Source: Candidatus Caenarcanales bacterium | Lineage (GTDB): Bacteria > Cyanobacteriota > Vampirovibrionia > LMEP-6097 | Length of the DNA stretch: 49,849 nt | Direction of reading: 5' to 3' | NCBI GenBank assembly: GCA_947459525.1 | Contig: CANHDW010000003.1 | Coordinates: 1-49,849, forward strand | Part shown: positions 6,926 to 47,200 of the stretch, one piece after another | Layout: each line of letters opens with the position of its first letter | Numbering within the stretch: the stretch's first letter is position 1 | Notes under the pieces: model-generated | Told to the model about the DNA's origin: nothing | Databases searched by the model: none | Seen by the model: the letters and a program-made list of their open reading frames with translations, nothing else | Made by a program: the position numbers and the translations under genes

Positions 6926-9421
6926 TTAATTGCTACTATTCATTAATAAAGCAAGTTTCTCCACAAGTTCTGCTGGATGGAAATTTGAACTGCCCCCAAT
7001 TATTACCATTCCAGTATTATCATTATTTGAGAAATTAACGTAAGTACTAGTACCGGGTATGGAACCTAATTTTAAAATATGCCCATCATTTAGATACCAG
7101 CCGAGTCCAATTTCACTAGAGCCAACCTCGCCCCCTGTAATAGAATTTTTCTGAACTTCTTGAGCTAATAACAGGGCAGATTCTATGGGAGATAGCTCTA
7201 AACCTTGTTCAGCTTTGTCTTTAGCTTGCATATTAGCTTGTAAGAATTTAACTAAATCTTCCGTTGTTGAATGGATGCCACCACTTCCGACAAAGGTATC
7301 GGTTACACCTGCGATTTTACCTTGATTAAACCCTTTTGCTAAATTTGCACTCTCGCTTGAGGATAAAGTTATTTTAGTTGTATCTAATCCTAGCGGGTCT
7401 AAAACACGATCATTTAGAAGATTTTCAAAGGTTGTTTCTGGAATATATTCTTCTCCAGATTCTTGGGTATGAGCAAAGGCTAGGGCTTCTTCTAATAAAC
7501 CATAACCATAATTACTATATTTATATTCTTTACCTGGTTCGCTTGCAAGTGTCGTAGATTCTACAAATGAAAATAAATCATCGACATCTTTACTGTCGGT
7601 GGGGTTCGTTGCAGGGTCTCTTAAGCCCGATGTGTGGGTTGCTAAATCTTCAAGAGTGATTTCTTTACCATTGTATTTTGGTAACTCAACGCCCGGGGGA
7701 AGGTACTGCTGCACTGGATCATCTAAATCTACTTCACCGCGTTCAACCATGTCAGCAAGTAGGGTTGCCGTTAAAGTTTTACTTACTGAACCGATTGAGA
7801 ATGTAGTATCTTCTGTTGGTGCCTGTACTCCATTTTTGGTATTAAGATCTGTGTCACCGACACTGTAGTACTTGGTTTGATCTCCATTGATTAATGCTAT
7901 GGATATTGGATAATTCTTTCCTGCTGAGTTTGCATATTCATTTAATAAATCTTGTACTGCTTTATCGCTTGGGAAACTTTTACTATTATTACTTTCTATG
8001 GCTTCATAATTTCCAGCCCAATACTGACTCATTTCACCAGTATTAAGATCGCCCCCGAGTACACCATCTTTATCGGTATCAAACTGTTCCCAGACATTTA
8101 AAAGCTCGTCAAAGTTTAATTTCCCATCTTTATCCGCATCATTTTTACTCACATGCTCATTCCAAGCACCTTTATTCCAGCCGAAAGAAGCCATTTCTTT
8201 ACCATCAAGGCTGCCATCTTTGTTTTTATCCCAAACATTATTGAAATTCACTTTATATTGTTCTTTAAATTTTATATCCTGTGCTGAATCACTAGGATCT
8301 TCATAATTTCCAGCCCAATACTGACTCATTTCACCAGTATTAAGATCGCCCCCGAGTACACCATCTTTATCGGTATCAAACTGTTTCCAGACATTTAAAA
8401 GCTCGTCAAAGTTTAATTTCCCATCTTTATTCGCATCATTTTTACTCACATGCTCATTCCAAGCACCTTTATTCCAGCCGAAAGAAGCCATTTCTTTACC
8501 ACCAAGGCTGCCATCTTTATTTTTATCCCAAACATTATTAAAATCAGCTTTATACTGCTCTGTAAATTTTGTATCTTGGAATGTTTCCACTGCACCGCCA
8601 TCTGGGTCTCCCATATCTTGAGGGTTTTCAGGAAAATGATCGCCATATCTTGGTCTAACAAACTCTCCAAGCTTATCTGTTAAGTGATAATCTACAAATT
8701 GTTCATTTAGTAAACTTACATATTTATTATCGGGGTCAGCAGATTTATATCCTTCTTCACCCCAGAAGTCAAACTGTATGTCATAAGCTTTGATTTCCTC
8801 CTGTATAGAATTTGTTTTTCCTTCTAGCGCACCATCTTTAGGATCATGCAGGTCTACATGAGCAAGTTCATGTATGAGTAAAGCTGCAACTACCTCAGCT
8901 GGAGCTTCTTCTAATAATTTCTTATCTAATTGTACTTCCTGCTTATCGCTACCTAGATTTTTAACTCGTGCCAAAATATTTTGACCAGTTACCGCTTTAG
9001 CATCAAATGATGATATTTTAGTATTTTCAAGATTATCAAGTATGCTAGAAAGTTCTGGATTTTCTACAATGTAATTTGCTATTAATTCTTTCGCATCATC
9101 TAGCTTAGTGCCTTTATTGGGACTTTGACTTCCCTCAAACTTCACCTCTTCTATACCACTGTCAATCTGTATTTGTGAGTTAGTAGCTTTGTTCGTTTTA
9201 TTATCAGATTTGATGACATTGTTTGAACTATCAACAATCAGCGTGTCATCACCAATTTTAGATTGATGATTCGTCGTAATACCTAATTCACTAGCCCGCT
9301 GTCTTACGGTATTAGTCTGTTTTTGAATATCAGCCTGATCAAGAGAAGAGTCTCCCTTTGTAAGCTGTTTATTCAAAGAGCCTAAGTCTGTTCTTAGGTT
9401 ATTGATCCTTGGGTTAAGCAT
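6926..9421 (-). CDS. zincin / EF-hand / serine beta-lactamase-like fusion protein
   Basis: The 831-residue product is a mosaic. Residues 1-60 share the MLNxRxxNLxxDL domain with the preceding RTX-like protein. Around 175-195 lies AALLIHELAHVDLHD, a HExxHxxxHD zincin metalloprotease motif (residues 184-193). Residues about 290-470 hold two near-identical blocks of three EF-hand-like loops (DKNKDGSLxGKE, DAxKDGKLNFDE, DTDKDGVLGG). Residues about 485-831 form a class C beta-lactamase/DD-peptidase-type serine hydrolase, with SVSK at 545-548 (nucleophile Ser545, Lys548), YSN at 635-637 and KLGSIPG near 784 as the third motif. No signal peptide is seen. Substrates are likely peptides or esters outside the cell, which is inferred. 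Beta-lactam resistance should not be assumed. Confidence 0.82.
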   Translation of the reverse strand: MLNPRINNLRTDLGSLNKQLTKGDSSLDQADIQKQTNTVRQRASELGITTNHQSKIGDDTLIVDSSNNVIKSDNKTNKATNSQIQIDSGIEEVKFEGSQSPNKGTKLDDAKELIANYIVENPELSSILDNLENTKISSFDAKAVTGQNILARVKNLGSDKQEVQLDKKLLEEAPAEVVAALLIHELAHVDLHDPKDGALEGKTNSIQEEIKAYDIQFDFWGEEGYKSADPDNKYVSLLNEQFVDYHLTDKLGEFVRPRYGDHFPENPQDMGDPDGGAVETFQDTKFTEQYKADFNNVWDKNKDGSLGGKEMASFGWNKGAWNEHVSKNDANKDGKLNFDELLNVWKQFDTDKDGVLGGDLNTGEMSQYWAGNYEDPSDSAQDIKFKEQYKVNFNNVWDKNKDGSLDGKEMASFGWNKGAWNEHVSKNDADKDGKLNFDELLNVWEQFDTDKDGVLGGDLNTGEMSQYWAGNYEAIESNNSKSFPSDKAVQDLLNEYANSAGKNYPISIALINGDQTKYYSVGDTDLNTKNGVQAPTEDTTFSIGSVSKTLTATLLADMVERGEVDLDDPVQQYLPPGVELPKYNGKEITLEDLATHTSGLRDPATNPTDSKDVDDLFSFVESTTLASEPGKEYKYSNYGYGLLEEALAFAHTQESGEEYIPETTFENLLNDRVLDPLGLDTTKITLSSSESANLAKGFNQGKIAGVTDTFVGSGGIHSTTEDLVKFLQANMQAKDKAEQGLELSPIESALLLAQEVQKNSITGGEVGSSEIGLGWYLNDGHILKLGSIPGTSTYVNFSNNDNTGMVIIGGSSNFHPAELVEKLALLMNSSN
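8002..8595 (-). repeat. 297-bp tandem duplication encoding an EF-hand block
   Basis: Two copies, 8002-8298 and 8299-8595, have a period of 297 bp, exactly 99 codons. Over the first roughly 235 bases the copies differ at only about five positions, then diverge toward the end of each unit. Each copy encodes three EF-hand-like calcium loops and the MSQYWAGNYE linker. High identity with a frame-preserving period indicates a recent duplication or ongoing homogenisation. Confidence 0.9.
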
Positions 9422-9497: not shown

Positions 9498-9530
9498 GAG
9501 AGACTGCTGCATGTCGTGCAGTGGTCTCTA
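9498..9530. repeat. hairpin resembling a deleted copy of the interspersed element
   Basis: Thirteen bases pair with thirteen (two G-T wobbles) around a five-base loop, beginning AGAGACTGCTGCA and ending TGCAGTGGTCTCT. The outer bases GAGAC...GTGGTCTC equal the terminal inverted repeats of the element at 16938-17127. It lies just beyond the 3' end of ruvX and lacks a T-tract, so it is not a standard terminator for that gene. An internally deleted element with only its two ends left is my preferred reading. Confidence 0.45.
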
Positions 9531-12477: not shown

Positions 12478-13317
12478 TTAGATAGTCTTAGTGCTGAGTT
12501 CAGAATTTTGATTTTTAAATAGAGAGATTATATTTTCTGTAAAAGCTTTAAGGTACTTATTATTTAGTTCTTCTGCTGTAATATTATCATCAAACTCAAT
12601 GGTAATGCAGTCCAGTCCTTTGTCTTTAGAGTAAGAACCAAGTGAGCCAGGAGTTGGATAGCCGATATCTTCGGTGAATTCCAGTTCTGTATCGCGTGCA
12701 AGTTTTATCGCAAAGTCTTTATGAGTACCTAGCCCATCATAGTTGACTTGTGGGGGATTTGGGAAGCGAATGAAATGGTTAGTATGAAAACTAATAATTA
12801 AATCAAAATCAAGACCCTCTATTAATTTAGTTAAAAGCTGAGTTTCGATTTCACTTGCAGGAAAGTCACCAGGGTAATAGGGGTTTTTTTCACCATCTAT
12901 TCTAAATTTTGCACTCTGCCAGTTTTGGCTTGGCATATTACGATTTAAATCTACGTCATTATGGTTATGACGAGTAAAATTTTTCAGGCCATGTGGATTT
13001 AATGCGGGAATTGCGATGATTTTAAAATCTTTAAGTTGATCTATATTGAGCTCTAGATCATTAATTTGGAGAGCAGTTTCTTCGACTGAATGTGCTGTTA
13101 GTCCAAGTAATTGAGATATTGACAATATGCCTATTGATCTTTTGTTGAGATCAGTATTTATAGAGCTATGCACTACTCCATTTTCTGAATTTTCATCAGT
13201 CTCATCTATAGATAGTATTTGGGTAAGTAGACTGTTCAAAAAGGCAGAACTTTGAGGCTCTACTCCGTGCGTTCCTGCTACTAATAATAGCCTCATTGGC
13301 AACGGTTCCCTTATCAA
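12478..13317 (-). CDS. M14-family zinc carboxypeptidase (MpaA/AstE-like)
   Basis: The 279-residue protein has the zinc ligands of M14 peptidases: GTHGVEPQ (HxxE), the NPHGL...VDLNRNMPSQNW region that binds substrate, SFHTN (third ligand His) and CITIEF (catalytic Glu). The DLNRN-NW combination resembles MpaA, which cleaves the gamma-D-Glu-diaminopimelate bond of murein peptides, so a role in cell-wall peptide recycling is inferred. I accept the TTG at 13315-13317 because a GGAG lies six bases upstream; ATG at 13296 is an alternative. Residues near 38-53 (ETDENSENGVVHSSIN) look like an in-frame piece of the interspersed element and interrupt the usual helix after the HxxE motif. Confidence 0.8.
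   Translation of the reverse strand: MIREPLPMRLLLVAGTHGVEPQSSAFLNSLLTQILSIDETDENSENGVVHSSINTDLNKRSIGILSISQLLGLTAHSVEETALQINDLELNIDQLKDFKIIAIPALNPHGLKNFTRHNHNDVDLNRNMPSQNWQSAKFRIDGEKNPYYPGDFPASEIETQLLTKLIEGLDFDLIISFHTNHFIRFPNPPQVNYDGLGTHKDFAIKLARDTELEFTEDIGYPTPGSLGSYSKDKGLDCITIEFDDNITAEELNNKYLKAFTENIISLFKNQNSELSTKTI
13155..13205 (-). mobile_element. in-frame right-end fragment of the interspersed element
   Basis: On the minus strand this stretch encodes DENSENGVVHSS. At DNA level it matches the right end of the full element (17075-17127): CAGAAAATGGAGT is shared exactly and the flanks are similar on both sides. The reading frame is the one used in argJ and queA. It sits in a surface region of the M14 peptidase, between the zinc-binding HxxE motif and the next conserved block. 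Confidence 0.55.
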
Positions 13318-16922: not shown

Positions 16923-16937
16923 AAGCTCGCTCAGGAA

Positions 16938-17127
16938 GAGACCACTGCACAACGTGCAGTTTCAAGGCTGAGGAGGACGAATGACCGCAGTGTAATTTCC
17001 AGCGATGCCGAGTATGCGACACGAGTGTCGTACGCGAGCAAGCGGAAATACAAGCTCCGCTTACTACAAGTACATGAGGATCATGAGGACGACAAAAACG
17101 CAGAAAATGGAGTTGTGCAGTGGTCTC
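16938..17127. mobile_element. 190-bp miniature inverted-repeat element, intact copy
   Basis: The ends are perfect 16-bp inverted repeats: GAGACCACTGCACAAC at 16938-16953 and its exact complement at 17112-17127. AGGAA occurs directly outside both ends (16933-16937 and 17128-17132), which reads as a 5-bp target duplication. The interior is visibly more GC-rich than its surroundings. On the plus strand one frame is open across the whole element and beyond, encoding RLRRTND, KRKYKLRLL and HEDHEDDKNAENGVVQ segments that match the piece translated inside argJ. There is no transposase, so it would move in trans. It separates two convergent genes and abuts the argJ stop codon. Confidence 0.85.
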
Positions 17128-18940
17128 AGGAAGTGTATTCTGCATTAATCTTCACATAGTCATAACTTAAATCATTCCCAAGAAAATGTGCAGAATTTAG
17201 AGCTTTGTTTTCGATAGTCGATTTATTTTTAGTTAAACTTATAACTATCTCTACGTGCCTTGCTTGTTTCAATCGCTTAGCGAGTCTATCTAAATCCTCG
17301 CCAAAAATCTGTGCAGAAGCATTTTTAAAAACACAGCTATCTAATAGATTTACTTCAATTAAACTCATGTCTAAACCTTCTAGTAGAGCTTCTTCCCGTG
17401 CGAAAGCTGCAACTATGCGCCCCCAATTGGGGTCATTACCAAAGATGGCGGTTTTAACCAACATTGAGTTAATAATATTTCTGCCGATTTTTTGAAGATT
17501 TAACTGACTGATAGGTAAGTTTTCTAGCTTGAGGTCTATGATTTTGGTTAAACCTTCACCATCTGCGATAATCTGATAGCAGAGTCCTTTGCAGACTTCT
17601 TCAAGAGATGCTTTGAATTCTTCTTTGCTGATTTCTTCTCCAGTAAAATTATTTAATAGGAGAACCATATCATTAGTACTGGTATCACCGTCTACGCTGA
17701 TGTTATTAAAAGTAGTGCTGACGATTTCACTTACAGTTTCCTGCATAAATTCCGTGGCTTTTTCATTATTAAGACCTAAAATTTTTACATCTGTAATAAT
17801 AAAGCCAAGCATGGTCGCCATGTTTGGAGCTATCATGCCAGAACCTTTACAGATGCCAAGGAATCGCTGTTTCTGATCCTGACTGATCTTTGGAACAGTA
17901 TCTGTGGTCATAATCGCTCTGGCGAAATCATAGACAGCTTCATAAGATTTAGAATTTTTCTTTTCTTTTATTTTTTCTGTGAAAACCTTTTTAGCGTGAC
18001 TCAGGTCAAGCTTACGTCCTATAACCCCCGTACTCGCCGACAGTACTTTTGGACACTGCTTGCAGTCTCCAATTTCTGCGATATTTTCAATAAAATCTTC
18101 AAGCAGTTTCCTTAAATCATTATCTGCTTTAACCCCTTCTTCTCCAGTGCAGCAGTTAGCATTACCAGAATTGGCGATAAGACCATGGACGGTTTTAGAT
18201 TTTAATTCTATGTTATGTTCTACGCATACAGCTTTCATCGCATTTTTTGTAAAAGTACCAGCCCAAGAACAGGGTTTTTCTGAAAATAAAACTGCCATAT
18301 CTAAATTATTTATTTTAGAGACAGCTTTAATTCCCGAGTGAAAACCCGTGAGGGAGAAGTATTTAGGTAGTGATGGTATGTAGGCTTTAGCTAAAAGAGT
18401 GTAGCCTTCTGCACAGTAGTAAAGGGCTAGAGGCATTAAAGCATAACTGTAAGCTTGTATGCCCTGTGCAAGTAATAAGGATTTCTCTTCTTCAGAGGGT
18501 ATTTCACCGTCGGCAAGAGCAGCTACTTTAATTCCTAGGCACTGCTGCTGAACTCCAATTTCTGCGTTTTCGTCGTCCTCATGATCCTCATGTACGTTAA
18601 GTAAGCGGAGCTTGTATTTCCGCTTGCTCGCATACGACACTGGTGTCGCATCCTCGGCATCGCTGGAAATTACATTGCGGTCATTCGTCCTCCTCAGCCT
18701 TGAACTTGCACGTTCGGCAGCAGTGCCCTCTAAGGACTGCTGCCGAACTCCAAGTTCTGCGTCTTCGTCGTTAATCTGGGATGTATACAATTCAGTAACA
18801 GGGATAAAACCTATATTCCTAGGACTAGAACCTGTTAAATTCAGATGATCTACTATCCTCAGTTCTTTTCCAGCAAGCTCTTCTGTAAGTGGAATTACAG
18901 GGATAAATATTTCTTTGATTTTCATCTTTCCATTAGCCAT
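17126..18940 (-). CDS. argJ: glutamate N-acetyltransferase/amino-acid acetyltransferase with N-terminal extension
   Basis: From about residue 192 onward the protein is ArgJ, the self-cleaving Ntn-hydrolase that moves acetyl from N-acetylornithine to glutamate. GFHSGIK...AVLFSEKPCSWAGTFTKN, LIANSGNANCCTG, LSASTGVIGRKL and MIAPNMATMLGF are present, with the autoproteolytic Thr in ATMLGF. Later GDTSTNDM, NDPNWGRIVAA and the usual C-terminus DYVKINAEYTS follow. Residues 1-190 precede this. About 110 of them form an unidentified domain with VDHLNLTG, reminiscent of purine nucleoside phosphorylases. About 81 (57-137) are an in-frame mobile-element insertion. ATG at 18925 (ATGA overlap with the sppA stop) is an alternative start. 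Residues conserved for catalysis look intact. Confidence 0.9.
   Translation of the reverse strand: MANGKMKIKEIFIPVIPLTEELAGKELRIVDHLNLTGSSPRNIGFIPVTELYTSQINDEDAELGVRQQSLEGTAAERASSRLRRTNDRNVISSDAEDATPVSYASKRKYKLRLLNVHEDHEDDENAEIGVQQQCLGIKVAALADGEIPSEEEKSLLLAQGIQAYSYALMPLALYYCAEGYTLLAKAYIPSLPKYFSLTGFHSGIKAVSKINNLDMAVLFSEKPCSWAGTFTKNAMKAVCVEHNIELKSKTVHGLIANSGNANCCTGEEGVKADNDLRKLLEDFIENIAEIGDCKQCPKVLSASTGVIGRKLDLSHAKKVFTEKIKEKKNSKSYEAVYDFARAIMTTDTVPKISQDQKQRFLGICKGSGMIAPNMATMLGFIITDVKILGLNNEKATEFMQETVSEIVSTTFNNISVDGDTSTNDMVLLLNNFTGEEISKEEFKASLEEVCKGLCYQIIADGEGLTKIIDLKLENLPISQLNLQKIGRNIINSMLVKTAIFGNDPNWGRIVAAFAREEALLEGLDMSLIEVNLLDSCVFKNASAQIFGEDLDRLAKRLKQARHVEIVISLTKNKSTIENKALNSAHFLGNDLSYDYVKINAEYTS
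18533..18770 (-). mobile_element. composite in-frame insertion of the interspersed element inside argJ
   Basis: A full-length copy (about 18538-18727) resembles the intact copy at 16938 in opposite orientation. It matches nearly base for base through the interior, from the CTGAGGAGGACGAATGACCGC block to the CATGAGGATCATGAGGACGAC block. Its ends, GGCACTGCTGCTGAAC and GTTCGGCAGCAGTGCC, are inverted repeats with one mismatch and a variant of the other copy's ends. A truncated second right end (about 18733-18770) is joined to it. The 5-mer TTAAT flanks the composite at 18528-18532 and 18771-18775. The distance between these repeats, 243 bp, equals 81 codons, and no stop codon is introduced. Confidence 0.82.
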
Positions 18941-22230: not shown

Positions 22231-23202
22231 TTATTTATCAAACAATTCACTTTTATTTACAAGCTCAACAAGCCTTTCTCTAAAATTTTTCTGAAACTCA
22301 TCAGAATTTATATCCTCGGTCCACATGATTAAGGCTGACTCTAGAGTATCTTCGTAGTATCTTTTACGAATGCCCTGTCTTTTAAATAAATATTTTTCAT
22401 AAAGACCTTGAGCCTTAATATTACTTACTCTTACTTCAAGAGTGAGTGCTTTAATATTCTGCTCTAGAGCTTTAAAAATTTGGGCTATGAGAAGGGCCTC
22501 TGCGACACCTTTTCTCGTATGGTTTTTAGCAGTAGCTATAGTTGTAATGTGCATTTCATCTATAATCATCCAAGAGCCGAGATAGCCTAAAATTTCATTC
22601 TCATCTTTATATAGGACATTATAGTCACCGACAGTATTATCTAACTCACTGACGAAATTATCTCGCGTCCAATGCACTTCACCATAGGCATCTGCTTCTA
22701 TGATAGAGACCTCATCTAAATCTGAAAGCATCATTCTGCGAATTTTATATTCGGGTTTAAGTTTAAAATAAGAATAAACGGTTTCTTGCACTATTTTAGG
22801 TTCTATCTCATCAAGCGGCTTTAAGACGAAATTCCTGCTAAGCATTCTCGGGTGAGGAATAGTCAGTTCCGCAGAATCTAGTTTAAGTCTATCAAAAAGC
22901 AGAATATCTATATCTATAATTCGTGCTGATTTTCTACCTCGCTCCGCTCTATTACAGTCGATGTTTAATTCAATTCGCTGTAATTCTTTTAAGAGCTCTA
23001 TGGGAGATAAATTTACAGATATTTTAATGACGCCATTCAAGAAGGGATTCGGACCTGCTTCTTCTATAGCGGGATTTTCAAGCCAAGTCGAGCATTTTAA
23101 AATTTTAACTCCCTTGCACTCAGCTATCTGTGAAAGAGCAGTTTCTAAATTTTTTTGTCTATTCCCTAGATTAGATCCTAGAGACAGGTAAGCGGTGTGC
23201 AT
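22231..23202 (-). CDS. folK: FolK-RimI fusion: HPPK and N-acetyltransferase in one chain
   Basis: Residues 1 to about 145 are hydroxymethyldihydropterin pyrophosphokinase (FolK), which attaches pyrophosphate to the folate pterin. LSLGSNLGNRQKNLETAL, NPFLNGVI, RAERGRKSARIIDIDILLFD and IPHPRMLSRNFVLKPL are all conserved. Residues about 150-310 form a GNAT acetyltransferase like RimI: IRRMMLSDLDEVSIIEADAYG, GYLGSWMIIDEMHITTIATAKNHTRKGVAEALL (acetyl-CoA loop) and LEVRVSNIKAQGLYEKYLFKRQGIRKRYYED. RimI acetylates the N-terminus of ribosomal protein S18. One uninterrupted frame covers both domains with a short linker and no internal ribosome binding site that I can see. The joining is unusual, and a gene fusion is more likely than an artefact. 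Confidence 0.88.
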   Translation of the reverse strand: MHTAYLSLGSNLGNRQKNLETALSQIAECKGVKILKCSTWLENPAIEEAGPNPFLNGVIKISVNLSPIELLKELQRIELNIDCNRAERGRKSARIIDIDILLFDRLKLDSAELTIPHPRMLSRNFVLKPLDEIEPKIVQETVYSYFKLKPEYKIRRMMLSDLDEVSIIEADAYGEVHWTRDNFVSELDNTVGDYNVLYKDENEILGYLGSWMIIDEMHITTIATAKNHTRKGVAEALLIAQIFKALEQNIKALTLEVRVSNIKAQGLYEKYLFKRQGIRKRYYEDTLESALIMWTEDINSDEFQKNFRERLVELVNKSELFDK

Positions 23203-33150: not shown

Positions 33151-33177
33151 CTATGGAGAAATTTTAACATGGGCGTG

Positions 33178-33201
33178 TAGCGAAACTCCAATTTCTGCGT
33201 T
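33178..33201 (-). mobile_element. truncated right end of the interspersed element after queA
   Basis: The 51-base gap between the queA stop and adk contains, on the minus strand, AAAACGCAGAAATTGGAGTT. This 20-base string is identical to one in the argJ copy. It begins right at the queA TAA codon. No matching left end is present. Confidence 0.6.
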
Positions 33202-34386
33202 TTAAAGCAAAAGGCAGCAGTCACCATAACTAAAGAATCGATATTTTTCTTCAACGGCTATCTGGTAAAGGGTTTTACATTCCTCTATGCCAATTAATGT
33301 GCTTACTAATAGTAGTAAAGTGGATTTAGGTAGATGAAAATTAGTGAGAAGCCCATCTATAATTTTAAATTTAAAATTTCCAGGATAAATATATAAATCA
33401 GTCTCACCACGTAATTTACCAGTAATAGCTATGCTTTCAAGACAGCGTAAGCTAGTAGTGCCGATAGCGATTACCCTCCTCCCTTCGGCTTTGGCTGACT
33501 GAATTTTATCCCAGTTTTCAGAGATAATTTCATAAGTCTCGAAATGCATCTTATGGTCTTTTACTTCGCTTACGCTGACAGGCTTAAAGGTTCCTATGCC
33601 TACATCTAGATTTAAGTCTATAAATTCAACTCCTTTTCTTGTAAGTGCTTGAATAATTTCTTCGGTGAAATGCAATCCAGCAGTAGGCGCTGCAATGCTG
33701 CTACCTAGAGAGTCTTGTTTAGAATAGACTGTCTGATAGCGTTCTTTATCACTATCTTCAGCACTCCTTTGTAGATAAGGTGGTATCGGCATAGTGCCGT
33801 GATTCGTGATTATGTTTATAAATTGCTCATAGCTTTTGAATTCAACTATCATCATCCCATCTTCATTCGAAGATCGCTGCACAACTCCATTTTCTGTGTT
33901 TCCCTTGAAAATAATTATTTCTTCGGATGAGCCACTTATGATATAAGATCGAGGGTTAGTTTTAATTTTTTTCCCAGGCTTAGCTAGAGCCGTCCAGCAA
34001 TATTTTTTATCATGGGACTGCTCGAAAATTCTAAATTCTGCATTTCCATAATCTCCATCATCCTCATGATCCGACAATTCTTTAACTAAAAGTATTTCGA
34101 TAGCTTTGTTTTCAGGCTTCTCTTTATCTATCACAAAAAATCTCGCTGCTAGCACTCTAGTGACATTCCTCACTAAAATATCACCGGCTTTTAGAATGGA
34201 GCATATATCTTTAAAGGATTTATGTTCGATATTTTTATTAAGTTCTTGTGAAATAGTGCCTTGGAGATTTGGTGCTTCCTGGATTTCTCGCTTATAATAG
34301 AGCAAGCGAGAATTATCCCTTTTATCTAGTGGATACTTAGCGACTAATTCCTCTGGTAGCTCAAAATCAAAATCGTCAATTAACAT
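33202..34386 (-). CDS. queA: tRNA preQ1(34) S-adenosylmethionine ribosyltransferase-isomerase, with insertions
   Basis: QueA converts preQ1 in tRNA to epoxyqueuosine. FDFELPEELVAKYPLDKRDNSRLL, LVRNVTRVLAARF, WTALAKPGKKIK, GTMPIPPYLQR, YQTVYSKQDSLGSSIAAPTAGLHFTEEI and LDVGIGTFKPVSVSEVKDHKMHFETYEI are conserved, followed by GTTSLRCLES and the end YRFFSYGDCCLLL. Length 394 exceeds the usual 340-356. The excess lies in SDHEDDGDYGNAEFRIFEQSHD after AIEILLVKEL and in NGVVQRSSNE before DGMMIVEF. Both match the interspersed element at DNA level, so both are in-frame insertions in loop positions. It is the first gene of the seven-gene operon. Confidence 0.95.
   Translation of the reverse strand: MLIDDFDFELPEELVAKYPLDKRDNSRLLYYKREIQEAPNLQGTISQELNKNIEHKSFKDICSILKAGDILVRNVTRVLAARFFVIDKEKPENKAIEILLVKELSDHEDDGDYGNAEFRIFEQSHDKKYCWTALAKPGKKIKTNPRSYIISGSSEEIIIFKGNTENGVVQRSSNEDGMMIVEFKSYEQFINIITNHGTMPIPPYLQRSAEDSDKERYQTVYSKQDSLGSSIAAPTAGLHFTEEIIQALTRKGVEFIDLNLDVGIGTFKPVSVSEVKDHKMHFETYEIISENWDKIQSAKAEGRRVIAIGTTSLRCLESIAITGKLRGETDLYIYPGNFKFKIIDGLLTNFHLPKSTLLLLVSTLIGIEECKTLYQIAVEEKYRFFSYGDCCLLL
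33870..33899 (-). mobile_element. 30-bp in-frame element fragment in queA
   Basis: This piece encodes NGVVQRSSNE, inserted between GNTE and DGMMIVEF. The surrounding string CACAGAAAATGGAGTTGTGCAG differs by one base from the right end of the intact element (17098-17120). The net addition is ten codons. Confidence 0.7.
34014..34075 (-). mobile_element. about 62-bp in-frame element fragment in queA
   Basis: The segment encodes HEDDGDYGNAEFRIFEQS, comparable residue by residue with HEDHEDDENAEIGVQQQC of the argJ copy. CATGAGGAT, GCAGAA and GCAGT are kept at the DNA level, with decay between them, so this insertion is older than those in argJ. It lies between AIEILLVKEL and the WTALAKPG block of QueA. 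Confidence 0.6.
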
Positions 34387-37114: not shown

Positions 37115-37159
37115 AATGCTTTAATTATCTCACGGATATTTTATCATTAAGTTTTAAAG

Positions 37160-37177
37160 TATCTAATTTATTAGATA
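37160..37177. promoter_or_regulatory. HipB operator O1
   Basis: An 18-bp palindrome of the form TATC-N10-GATA, TATCTAATTTATTAGATA. This is the spacing of the E. coli HipB operator (TATCC-N8-GGATA). It is the most distal of three sites 40 bp apart in front of hipA. Confidence 0.75.
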
Positions 37178-37199
37178 TTTTGTAAATAATATTATTAAG

Positions 37200-37217
37200 T
37201 ATCTAATTTATTAGATA
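37200..37217. promoter_or_regulatory. HipB operator O2
   Basis: Identical 18-bp palindrome to the site at 37160, exactly 40 bp downstream, close to where a -35 element would be. Confidence 0.75.
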
Positions 37218-37234
37218 CTTAATAATATGGTGGG

Positions 37235-37257
37235 TATAATATCTGATAGATTGGATA
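37235..37257 (+). promoter_or_regulatory. hipA promoter -10 box overlapping HipB operator O3
   Basis: TATAAT at 37235-37240 overlaps the first base of TATCTGATAGATTGGATA (37240-37257), a third TATC-N10-GATA site, again 40 bp from O2. Binding here would block polymerase directly. The ATG of hipA follows six bases after the operator, so the leader is very short and has no Shine-Dalgarno sequence. Confidence 0.7.
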
Positions 37258-37263
37258 TTTTAT

Positions 37264-38445
37264 ATGGCTAATTCTGATTGGGCGAAAGTCTATTTAAATG
37301 ATGATTTTGTTGGTTATTTAGAAGAACAACCAGGTGGAAGAACTTGTTTTACTTATGATGAGAGTTTTATACAAAGCAGTAATAATCCAGTATCGGTAAC
37401 ATTACCTTTAAATATAAATAAGCATTATTCTGAAAATGGCTTACATCCTTTTTTTGATAATCTTGTCGCAGAGGGATGGCTTGCACAGATTCAAGCTAAA
37501 GCTTTAGGTATCCGTGAAAATGATCGATTTAAATTATTAATGGCTTTTGGTTATGATTTGATCGGGGCTATGACGGTAGTCGATCCAGATCCACAGTATC
37601 AAATCCACCTTGATAAAAATGATTATGTAAAAAAAATAGCTGTAAAATCTAAAGCTTCTATGTCTGGTGTGCAGCCTAAAATACTAGTAACTTTAGGAGA
37701 AAATGGTTTCGTACCTGTCAATTTAGGAGAGACTTCTACGTATATTGCGAAGCTGAAAGGTAAGTATCCATTAATTTTAGAGAATGAATATCTTTGCATG
37801 AAGGTAGCTGAAATTTTACTCAGACCTGATGAAGTTGCAGAAACTCAGCTTGCTGAGATAGAAGGTATTGGTGAGGCATTATTGGTGAAACGCTTTGACA
37901 GGCTTGAAAATAAAACTAAAGTACATTTTGAAGAATTTGCTTCGCTGCTACACATGAAGGCTATAGATAAATATGATTTAAGCTATAAAGATTTAGCTGA
38001 TTATATGAATAACAGTGAACTATGTAATAAAGTTGACGTTGAAAAGCTCTTTAGAAGGGTTTTGGCTTGTATACTTTTAGGCAATACTGATGCACATTTG
38101 AAAAATTTTGCTATGTTATATAATGCTGCTGGTCTAAAGTTAAGCCCTCTGTATGATATGGTTTTTGTGAGATATTATGAAGAACTGACCCCTAATCTAG
38201 CTTTAGGGTTTAATTCTAAACTTGACTTGCCCTTAGGCGATATCAAAGCTAAGCATTTAAAGATACTTTGTGCAGATTTTAATTTACGTGAAGCTGTTTT
38301 AGAACAGGCAGTAAAAGATTTTTCTTCTAAGTTGGATCAAGTCTATGATTTTATAGAAGCTTGTAAAAAGGTAAATCCTTCGTTGAGAAAAGCTTTTAGG
38401 GAGCATATTAAAAAAAGATGGAACGGCATATTCAAAAATATTTAA
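37264..38445 (+). CDS. hipA: HipA-family serine/threonine kinase toxin
   Basis: The 393-residue protein has the N-terminal subdomain-1 segment (VYLNDDFVGYLEEQPGGRTCFTYD...PVSVTLPL) and the kinase-like core. SKASMSGVQPKILVTL is the ejectable P-loop, LLVKRFDRLENKTKVHFEEFASLL follows, LLGNTDAHLKNFAMLY is the catalytic loop Asp and LSPLYDMVFVRYY the metal-binding DFG-like segment. HipA phosphorylates a tRNA synthetase and induces dormancy in E. coli; the target here is unknown. It is a full-length single-chain form. The gene precedes hipB, the opposite of the E. coli order, and overlaps it by 28 bases. Confidence 0.9.
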   Translation: MANSDWAKVYLNDDFVGYLEEQPGGRTCFTYDESFIQSSNNPVSVTLPLNINKHYSENGLHPFFDNLVAEGWLAQIQAKALGIRENDRFKLLMAFGYDLIGAMTVVDPDPQYQIHLDKNDYVKKIAVKSKASMSGVQPKILVTLGENGFVPVNLGETSTYIAKLKGKYPLILENEYLCMKVAEILLRPDEVAETQLAEIEGIGEALLVKRFDRLENKTKVHFEEFASLLHMKAIDKYDLSYKDLADYMNNSELCNKVDVEKLFRRVLACILLGNTDAHLKNFAMLYNAAGLKLSPLYDMVFVRYYEELTPNLALGFNSKLDLPLGDIKAKHLKILCADFNLREAVLEQAVKDFSSKLDQVYDFIEACKKVNPSLRKAFREHIKKRWNGIFKNI

Positions 38446-38756
38446 AAACTATAGTTACTGAGATTAAGTCTGAGCGAAAAAAGCAGAAAGTATCTCAAAA
38501 AAGATTATCTGCCTTAACGGGAATTAGCACTCAAACTATTTCACGTTTTGAACAAGCTGAGGAGAATATACAGTTTTCTACTGTACTTCAACTTGCAGAT
38601 GCCTTAGGCTTGCATCTCGAAATTGCTTCACCAAGAGGTTTTCAATTGCTAGTTAAAAGACTTTTGCGATATGCTTTAGAGAAAGATATACCTGAAGTGG
38701 CTGATTTAATGCTTGATGAGGAGATTAGAGCTATCGTGCAGAGGGTGATTCAGTAA
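38418..38756 (+). CDS. hipB: HipB-like XRE-family antitoxin/repressor
   Basis: The 112-residue protein has a helix-turn-helix at about residues 15-65: IKSERKKQKVSQKRLSALTGISTQTISRFEQAEENIQFSTVLQLADALGL. It ends in a helical tail (LLKRLLRYALEKDIPEVADLMLDEEIRAIVQRV) that presumably pairs with HipA or forms the dimer. It neutralises HipA and represses its own operon by binding the three palindromes at 37160-37257. Its start overlaps the hipA end by 28 bases, so both come from one message and toxin is made first. Confidence 0.9.
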   Translation: MERHIQKYLKTIVTEIKSERKKQKVSQKRLSALTGISTQTISRFEQAEENIQFSTVLQLADALGLHLEIASPRGFQLLVKRLLRYALEKDIPEVADLMLDEEIRAIVQRVIQ

Positions 38757-47157: not shown

Positions 47158-47200
47158 GTGTGCAAGTTTAAGGCGGGGGGGCGAATGACCGCAAAATGTA
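47158..47200 (+). mobile_element. left-interior fragment of the interspersed element
   Basis: The run GTGTGCAAGTTTAAGG, seven Gs, then CGAATGACCGCAAAATGTA parallels the left interior of the element in argJ (GTGCAAGTTCAAGG ... GACGAATGACCGCAATGTAA). CGAATGACCGCA is identical to both full copies. Both ends are missing. A second shorter match to AAGTTCAAGGC precedes it at 47136-47146. Confidence 0.6.

Follow-up and report, generated by a model that had tools for sequence, protein, structure and literature searches.

Element copies in the window

The window, i.e. the whole stretch of 49,849 nucleotides that was analysed, carries a 190-bp copy of a repeated element on the plus strand at 16938-17127, in the intergenic region between a zinc-cluster-like ORF and argJ. 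This copy is bounded by two terminal inverted repeats (TIRs), GAGACCACTGCACAAC on the left (16938-16953, plus strand) and GTTGTGCAGTGGTCTC on the right (17112-17127, plus strand), which match perfectly over 16 bp. The pentamer AGGAA, the target site duplication (TSD), lies directly outside both ends, at 16933-16937 and 17128-17132. The G+C content of the copy is 51%, vs 36% for the window. These perfect ends, the flanking AGGAA and the raised G+C had all been pointed out in a previous reading of the letters alone (hereafter, the sequence-only reading), and all three are borne out.

The locus was compared between the window's own genome (G000) and two congeneric genomes (G001 and G002; genus g1). 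The orthologous site of G001 carries a 121-bp short form, which lacks the 69-bp tip segment with two extra hairpins found at 16995-17063 in the window copy (plus strand, boundary ambiguous by ~1 bp). Since the G001 orthologue is the 121-bp form, this segment must have been gained or lost at the window site. In G002 only a degraded remnant was found and no clean empty site, so that the window site had to be discarded as a clean empty/filled pair.

Similar sequences exist elsewhere in the window, as the sequence-only reading had proposed, and most of them can now be specified. The one in argJ is a second long-form copy of 190 bp (18538-18727, minus strand), inserted in frame on the sense strand of the gene (frame 0); G001 has a 40-bp version of it and G002 lacks it. 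A right-hand fragment adjoins this copy on its 5' side (18735-18771, minus strand) with a direct-repeat spacing of 195 bp, and argJ contains a second right-hand fragment (18052-18088, minus strand) at a site where G002 has a full 121-bp copy. The matches in queA and in the M14-peptidase-like gene are right-hand fragments as well: one is in frame in queA (33871-33906, minus strand), another straddles the queA stop codon (33175-33207, minus strand) and the third, in the peptidase gene (13163-13197, minus strand), is degenerate and also present in G001. As for the two intergenic matches formerly listed, the one at 47160-47193 (plus strand) matches part of the left arm (83.8% in 37 aligned columns) and the other, at 9507-9528, is only a TIR-like palindrome. 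Finally, the window contains an empty target at approximately 22598-22606 (minus strand), which is filled in G001 by a 121-bp in-frame copy. It lies in an ORF where folK and rimI are apparently fused (22231-23202) and whose G001 orthologue matches both families.

Other repeats were observed in the window. The ORF at 6926-9421 contains a 280-nt direct repeat (8002-8281 and 8299-8578, 95% identity) that encodes DxDxDG-like calcium-binding motifs, N-terminal of a serine-hydrolase-like part. At 37155-37262, two 53-nt arms that are 79% complementary and separated by 2 nt lie directly upstream of a HipA-like/HTH gene pair (37264-38445 and 38418-38756).

Abundance, length and mobility of the family

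The genome of the window contains 74 significant BLAST pieces of the element. A 20-base pattern of its core occurs 39 times in G000, 72 times in G001 and 65 times in G002 (all three incomplete MAGs, 54-93%), whereas the reversed control pattern does not occur. The core pattern was found in the named records of Candidatus Melainabacteria LMEP_6097, Cyanobacteria bacterium REEB446 and the Caenarcanales MAG DT_14, which places the host in the Caenarcaniphilales ("Melainabacteria"), among the non-photosynthetic relatives of cyanobacteria; an assignment to Rickettsiales, prompted by the in-frame insertions, proved wrong. One match each in a Flavobacteriaceae and a Fimbriiglobus record is what we would expect by chance. 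None of the window copies or their distant relatives has a relevant match in Rfam, and a literature search on Caenarcaniphilales among open-licence papers found no title about such repeats.

TIRs match at at least 13 of 16 positions in 95 of 115 copies. Of these 95, 79 are exactly 121 bp long and the remainder mainly measure 190-202 bp, the full range extending up to 211 bp. The long forms have an extra ~69-81 bp at the hairpin tip, and pairs of long and short forms are also found at further orthologous sites. The 190-bp copy described in the sequence-only reading is therefore real, but 190 bp is not the unit of the family. Several TIR types (GGGCGTGTAGC, GGCACTGTTGCC, GGGACTGCTC and GAGACC) are common to many copies each. 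No copy found encodes a transposase gene, and the search for a full-length transposon with the same ends, which the sequence-only reading had suggested, yielded no parent element.

The evidence for mobility comes from the flanks. A perfect 5-bp TSD surrounds 23 of the 95 g1 copies, vs 0.8 expected from shuffled flanks, and 20 more have a TSD with one mismatch; TSDs of other lengths are few or absent among g1 copies. Clean empty sites were found in sister species for the folK-rimI copy and for the pairs L109/L188 and L217/L242, where the difference amounts to the element plus 5 bp and the TSD has one mismatch in each case. The sequence-only reading took the element for a MITE with an apparent TSD of 5 bp, noting that a lack of further copies in the genome, or relatives with the same sequence and no empty site, would argue against mobility. 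Neither is observed: further copies abound, clean empty sites exist, and the TSDs, the empty sites and the lack of a transposase support the MITE proposal. Many other orthologous pairs differ by exactly one step of 126 bp beside an existing right-hand fragment, which fits a tandem duplication or its reversal. At one more site (L154, 1202-1322, compared with L002), the flanks of a full copy in G001 are separated in G000 by nothing but GATACTC, a possible excision footprint.

Copies inside genes

A 121-bp insertion together with its 5-bp duplication adds 126 bp, i.e. 42 codons. Among 96 independent sites, 34 are in long ORFs and 62 elsewhere. All 34 genic copies lie on the sense strand of the gene in frame 0, and the sum of their length and 5 is always divisible by 3, long forms included, in agreement with the earlier suggestion that an insertion does not shift the reading frame. 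We found no out-of-frame or antisense genic copies, as the removal of the element restored a long ORF in none of the 62 other cases. Since the antisense frame is usually open too (65 of 95 copies), stop codons alone do not explain the bias towards the sense strand.

The host genes recognized by NCBIfam/Pfam profiles include guaA, gltX, glyS, valS, trmD, lepB, tsaE, argJ, a purine-nucleoside phosphorylase gene and the folK-rimI fusion (ten checked in total, some of the ORFs being truncated where the fetched stretch ends and some matches being below the curated cut-off). In gltX and the purine-nucleoside phosphorylase gene, the insert falls within the match to the catalytic domain. The stop-free frame of the genic copies reads (G-x-x-x-x-R)-SSRLRRTNDRSVL-x-VHEDHEDDENAEI, and peptides such as TNDRSVL or VHEDHEDDENAE are predicted in GuaA, GltX or TrmD. 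Judging from these open frames, the host proteins would be made with the insert.

Decay of the copies

Truncated copies are strongly asymmetric: around the copies, in the loci that were fetched and to which these counts refer, 99 fragments retain only the right-hand part and 12 only the left-hand part. In long ORFs, 46 of 48 frame assignments of fragments correspond to the sense frame of full copies. At several orthologous sites, a full copy in one species corresponds to a shortened copy in another, the right end being the same; because a sister species keeps the full copy with that end, truncation at these sites can be attributed to deletion. In a subset of the g1 right-hand fragments (e.g. 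L151, L167, L253), GCGGGCG replaces GACGACG. Full copies only rarely show this variant (L151), a hint that it spread separately or through gene conversion.

A conserved predicted fold

The gap-free alignment of 78 independent 121-bp copies leads to one long predicted hairpin of the sense strand, made up of a terminal stem, facing GA/GA mismatches, a short core and a tip hairpin with a variable loop. In this alignment, 97.1% of the fold cells are paired, vs 85.6% in shuffles and at most 44% when the fold is slid along the sequence, and the covariation score is 0.315 vs at most 0.080 when slid. Pairs changed on both sides number 25 vs 13.2 in shuffles, a comparison in which the shuffle control overstates independence, as subfamily descent and kinship of the copies account for part of the TIR covariation. 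The relatedness of the copies inflates this test, but the evidence from other genera (see below) is independent of it.

The terminal stem differs in sequence between copies, both sides changing together so that complementarity is kept, and even private TIR changes of single copies are mirrored on the opposite side. The core has another organization: pairing is confined to every third position and, in between, a GA on the left faces a GA on the right (70-76 of 78 sequences at four sites). We take these facing dinucleotides to be tandem sheared G.A pairs, which is their natural reading; the G.A contacts of the core are possible only on the sense strand. Thus, the conserved feature of the family is a predicted fold, while the sequence of its terminal stem changes.

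Relatives beyond the genus

A covariance model built from the g1 copies was run on a class sample and a phylum sample. In the class sample, it had matches in each of the nine genomes of family f1 and in four genomes of family f8, but in none of the other 276; the phylum sample added two genomes of family f13. By BLAST, clear copies were detected in two f1 genera and one weak match in a third. The f13 copies have a G+C content of 61-74% and ends that differ from those of g1, namely GTAACTGCTCACC with a TSD of ~8 bp in G321. These may resemble IS66-type ends: GTAA ends and an 8-bp TSD, the features of IS66-derived elements, are found in 3-4 of the 5 G321 copies. The core fold is kept across genera that range from ~34 to 74% G+C while the ends change, and single-sequence folds of relatives from several genera have much the same architecture.

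The relatives also differ in their relationship to genes. A recent subfamily of genus g3 measures 119-120 bp and is frame-shifting with its 5-bp TSD (perfect in 8 of 40 copies vs 0.3 expected); almost all copies lie outside long ORFs, with 3 of the 40 inside. The simplest history that we can infer is that of a frame-shifting intergenic ancestor which gave rise to a coding-compatible derivative in g1. The copies of G006 (e.g. L325, L326, L328, L329) share a nearly identical core and tip loop, yet their terminal repeats differ in every copy and are still complementary; no TSD above chance was found in G006. Copies of G015 and G025 (e.g. L316, L324) are enclosed by an outer palindrome, GACCTCTTGC...GCAAGAGGTC.

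Possible mechanisms of mobility

On balance, we find it probable, by a modest measure, that the family is an RPE-like, coding-compatible MITE recognized largely by its fold. A single long hairpin is predicted for the sense strand of this non-autonomous element. Machinery supplied in trans would mobilize the element by recognizing mainly this folded strand, either as RNA or as single-stranded DNA, and to a lesser extent any fixed sequence at its ends. Copies with unpaired ends would drop out. The g1 lineage may have turned coding-compatible from its frame-shifting intergenic ancestor, and its copies could then persist in essential genes. Once inserted, copies would decay by deletions that keep the frame and mostly spare the acidic right-hand part, and they would also grow or shrink by steps of 126 bp. 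A more far-reaching proposal, which we only advance tentatively, is that the fold constitutes the identity of the element: the machinery would read the folded sense strand and leave the TIRs free to change while they remain paired, so that the family would include different ends and TSDs (5 bp in f1, ~8 bp in f13) and one translation-neutral lineage that puts a 42-codon insert in essential proteins.

The recognition of the fold is favored by the covarying ends around a conserved core. Nevertheless, these features would also be consistent with several transposases, each specific for certain ends, that act on subfamilies, and conserved pairing alone is compatible with the recognition of RNA, of folded single-stranded DNA or of ordinary TIRs by several transposases. 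In the context of an ordinary MITE, one or several DDE transposases would read the TIR, the TIR types would correspond to subfamilies and the fold would be incidental or a leftover. The 5-bp TSDs, the perfect TIRs, the existence of several TIR types each common to many copies and the f13 ends GTAACTGCTCACC with a ~8-bp TSD, which may be IS66-like, can all be accounted for in this way. Yet the core fold persists over the whole ~34-74% G+C range of the genera while the ends change, single copies have private TIR changes mirrored on both sides and no long element with such ends was seen; the single intact DDE_Tnp_1 gene found in G002 has ends, AGGGCTGTCTCATTCTAA, unlike those of the element. This explanation is possible but less likely in our opinion. 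Candidates for the mobilizing function were also sought among other machineries. RAYT, reverse transcriptase and rve integrase were rejected because they are not consistently present in the genus (the rve integrase is absent from G002), as was mobility by phages, viral contigs or plasmids, for which there were no matches (a 42-nt query gave only E ~0.2-0.7).

The sense-strand structure with its G.A pairs and the excess of right-hand-only remnants over left-hand-only ones (99 vs 12) would be expected from a SINE-like retroposition, in which a folded RNA is reverse transcribed and integrated, leaving 5'-truncated copies. This seems improbable, as RVT_1 (PF00078) was not found in 8 of the 9 f1 genomes (G000-G005, G007, G008) and full and truncated copies with the same right end occupy the same sites. 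REP/BIME-like hairpins moved by a Y1 (RAYT) transposase are likewise dispersed, multi-copy and hairpin-shaped, but Y1_Tnp (PF01797) was not found in G000, G001 and G002, where copies are most numerous. Moreover, 5-bp TSDs are not known to fit Y1 chemistry. MAG incompleteness apart, this hypothesis is largely refuted for g1 and we give it hardly any credence. Equally remote is an intron-like element that would be removed from the mRNA or the protein, leaving host proteins unchanged. The location of all genic copies on one strand and their strong predicted transcript fold would be congruent with it. Nonetheless, removal from RNA would tolerate any phase and is therefore disfavored by the lack of out-of-frame or antisense genic copies (0/62); the fragments in ORFs keep the frame too (46/48), which bears on removal at the RNA level and not at the protein level. 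The reading that we prefer remains that of a coding-compatible MITE recognized largely by its fold.

Comparison with known systems

Palindromic elements lying in frame in genes were recognized in Rickettsia as early as 2000, with orthologues tending to share the insert. The case described here is an independent RPE-like one from a remote phylum, where duplications are fresh, sister species have empty sites and a related genus has frame-shifting versions. It makes testable what moves such elements, whether their fold is recognized and by what route a selfish element turns so harmless that essential genes can accommodate it; the covariance model can be used right away to look for further copies.

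Among the systems that may be compared by description, PARCELs are palindromic amphipathic repeat coding elements that form intragenic tandem repeats in repeat proteins (PMC2996958); they resemble our family, as described, in being palindromic repeats with coding capacity. The mitochondria of Nematomorpha have coding palindromes, perfect inverted repeats inside protein genes (PMC6649704), whereas ours is a dispersed mobile family with TSDs. The bacterial MITEs Correia/NEMIS, ERIC and RUP, whose stems have A-G mispairs (PMC2229807), share with it a small size, the lack of a transposase, TIRs, TSDs and stem-loop transcripts. Contrary to them, the TIR sequence varies here with pairing kept, no parent transposon was found and genic insertion is strictly in the sense frame.

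The RPEs, together with the Wolbachia elements, are palindromes of ~100-150 bp with long stem-loops, found in frame in conserved genes (PMC2229807, PMC10969869, PMC3767692). The likeness consists in a small palindrome with an open frame, inserted in frame in conserved genes (34/34 here). For the RPEs, PMC2229807 lists an unknown target duplication; in R. japonica, orthologues carry an insert at the same locus (PMC3767692). By comparison, the present family belongs to a different phylum, is set beside the RPEs by description, and differs from them in its 5-bp TSDs, empty sites, recent copies, single fixed frame and fold conserved across genera.
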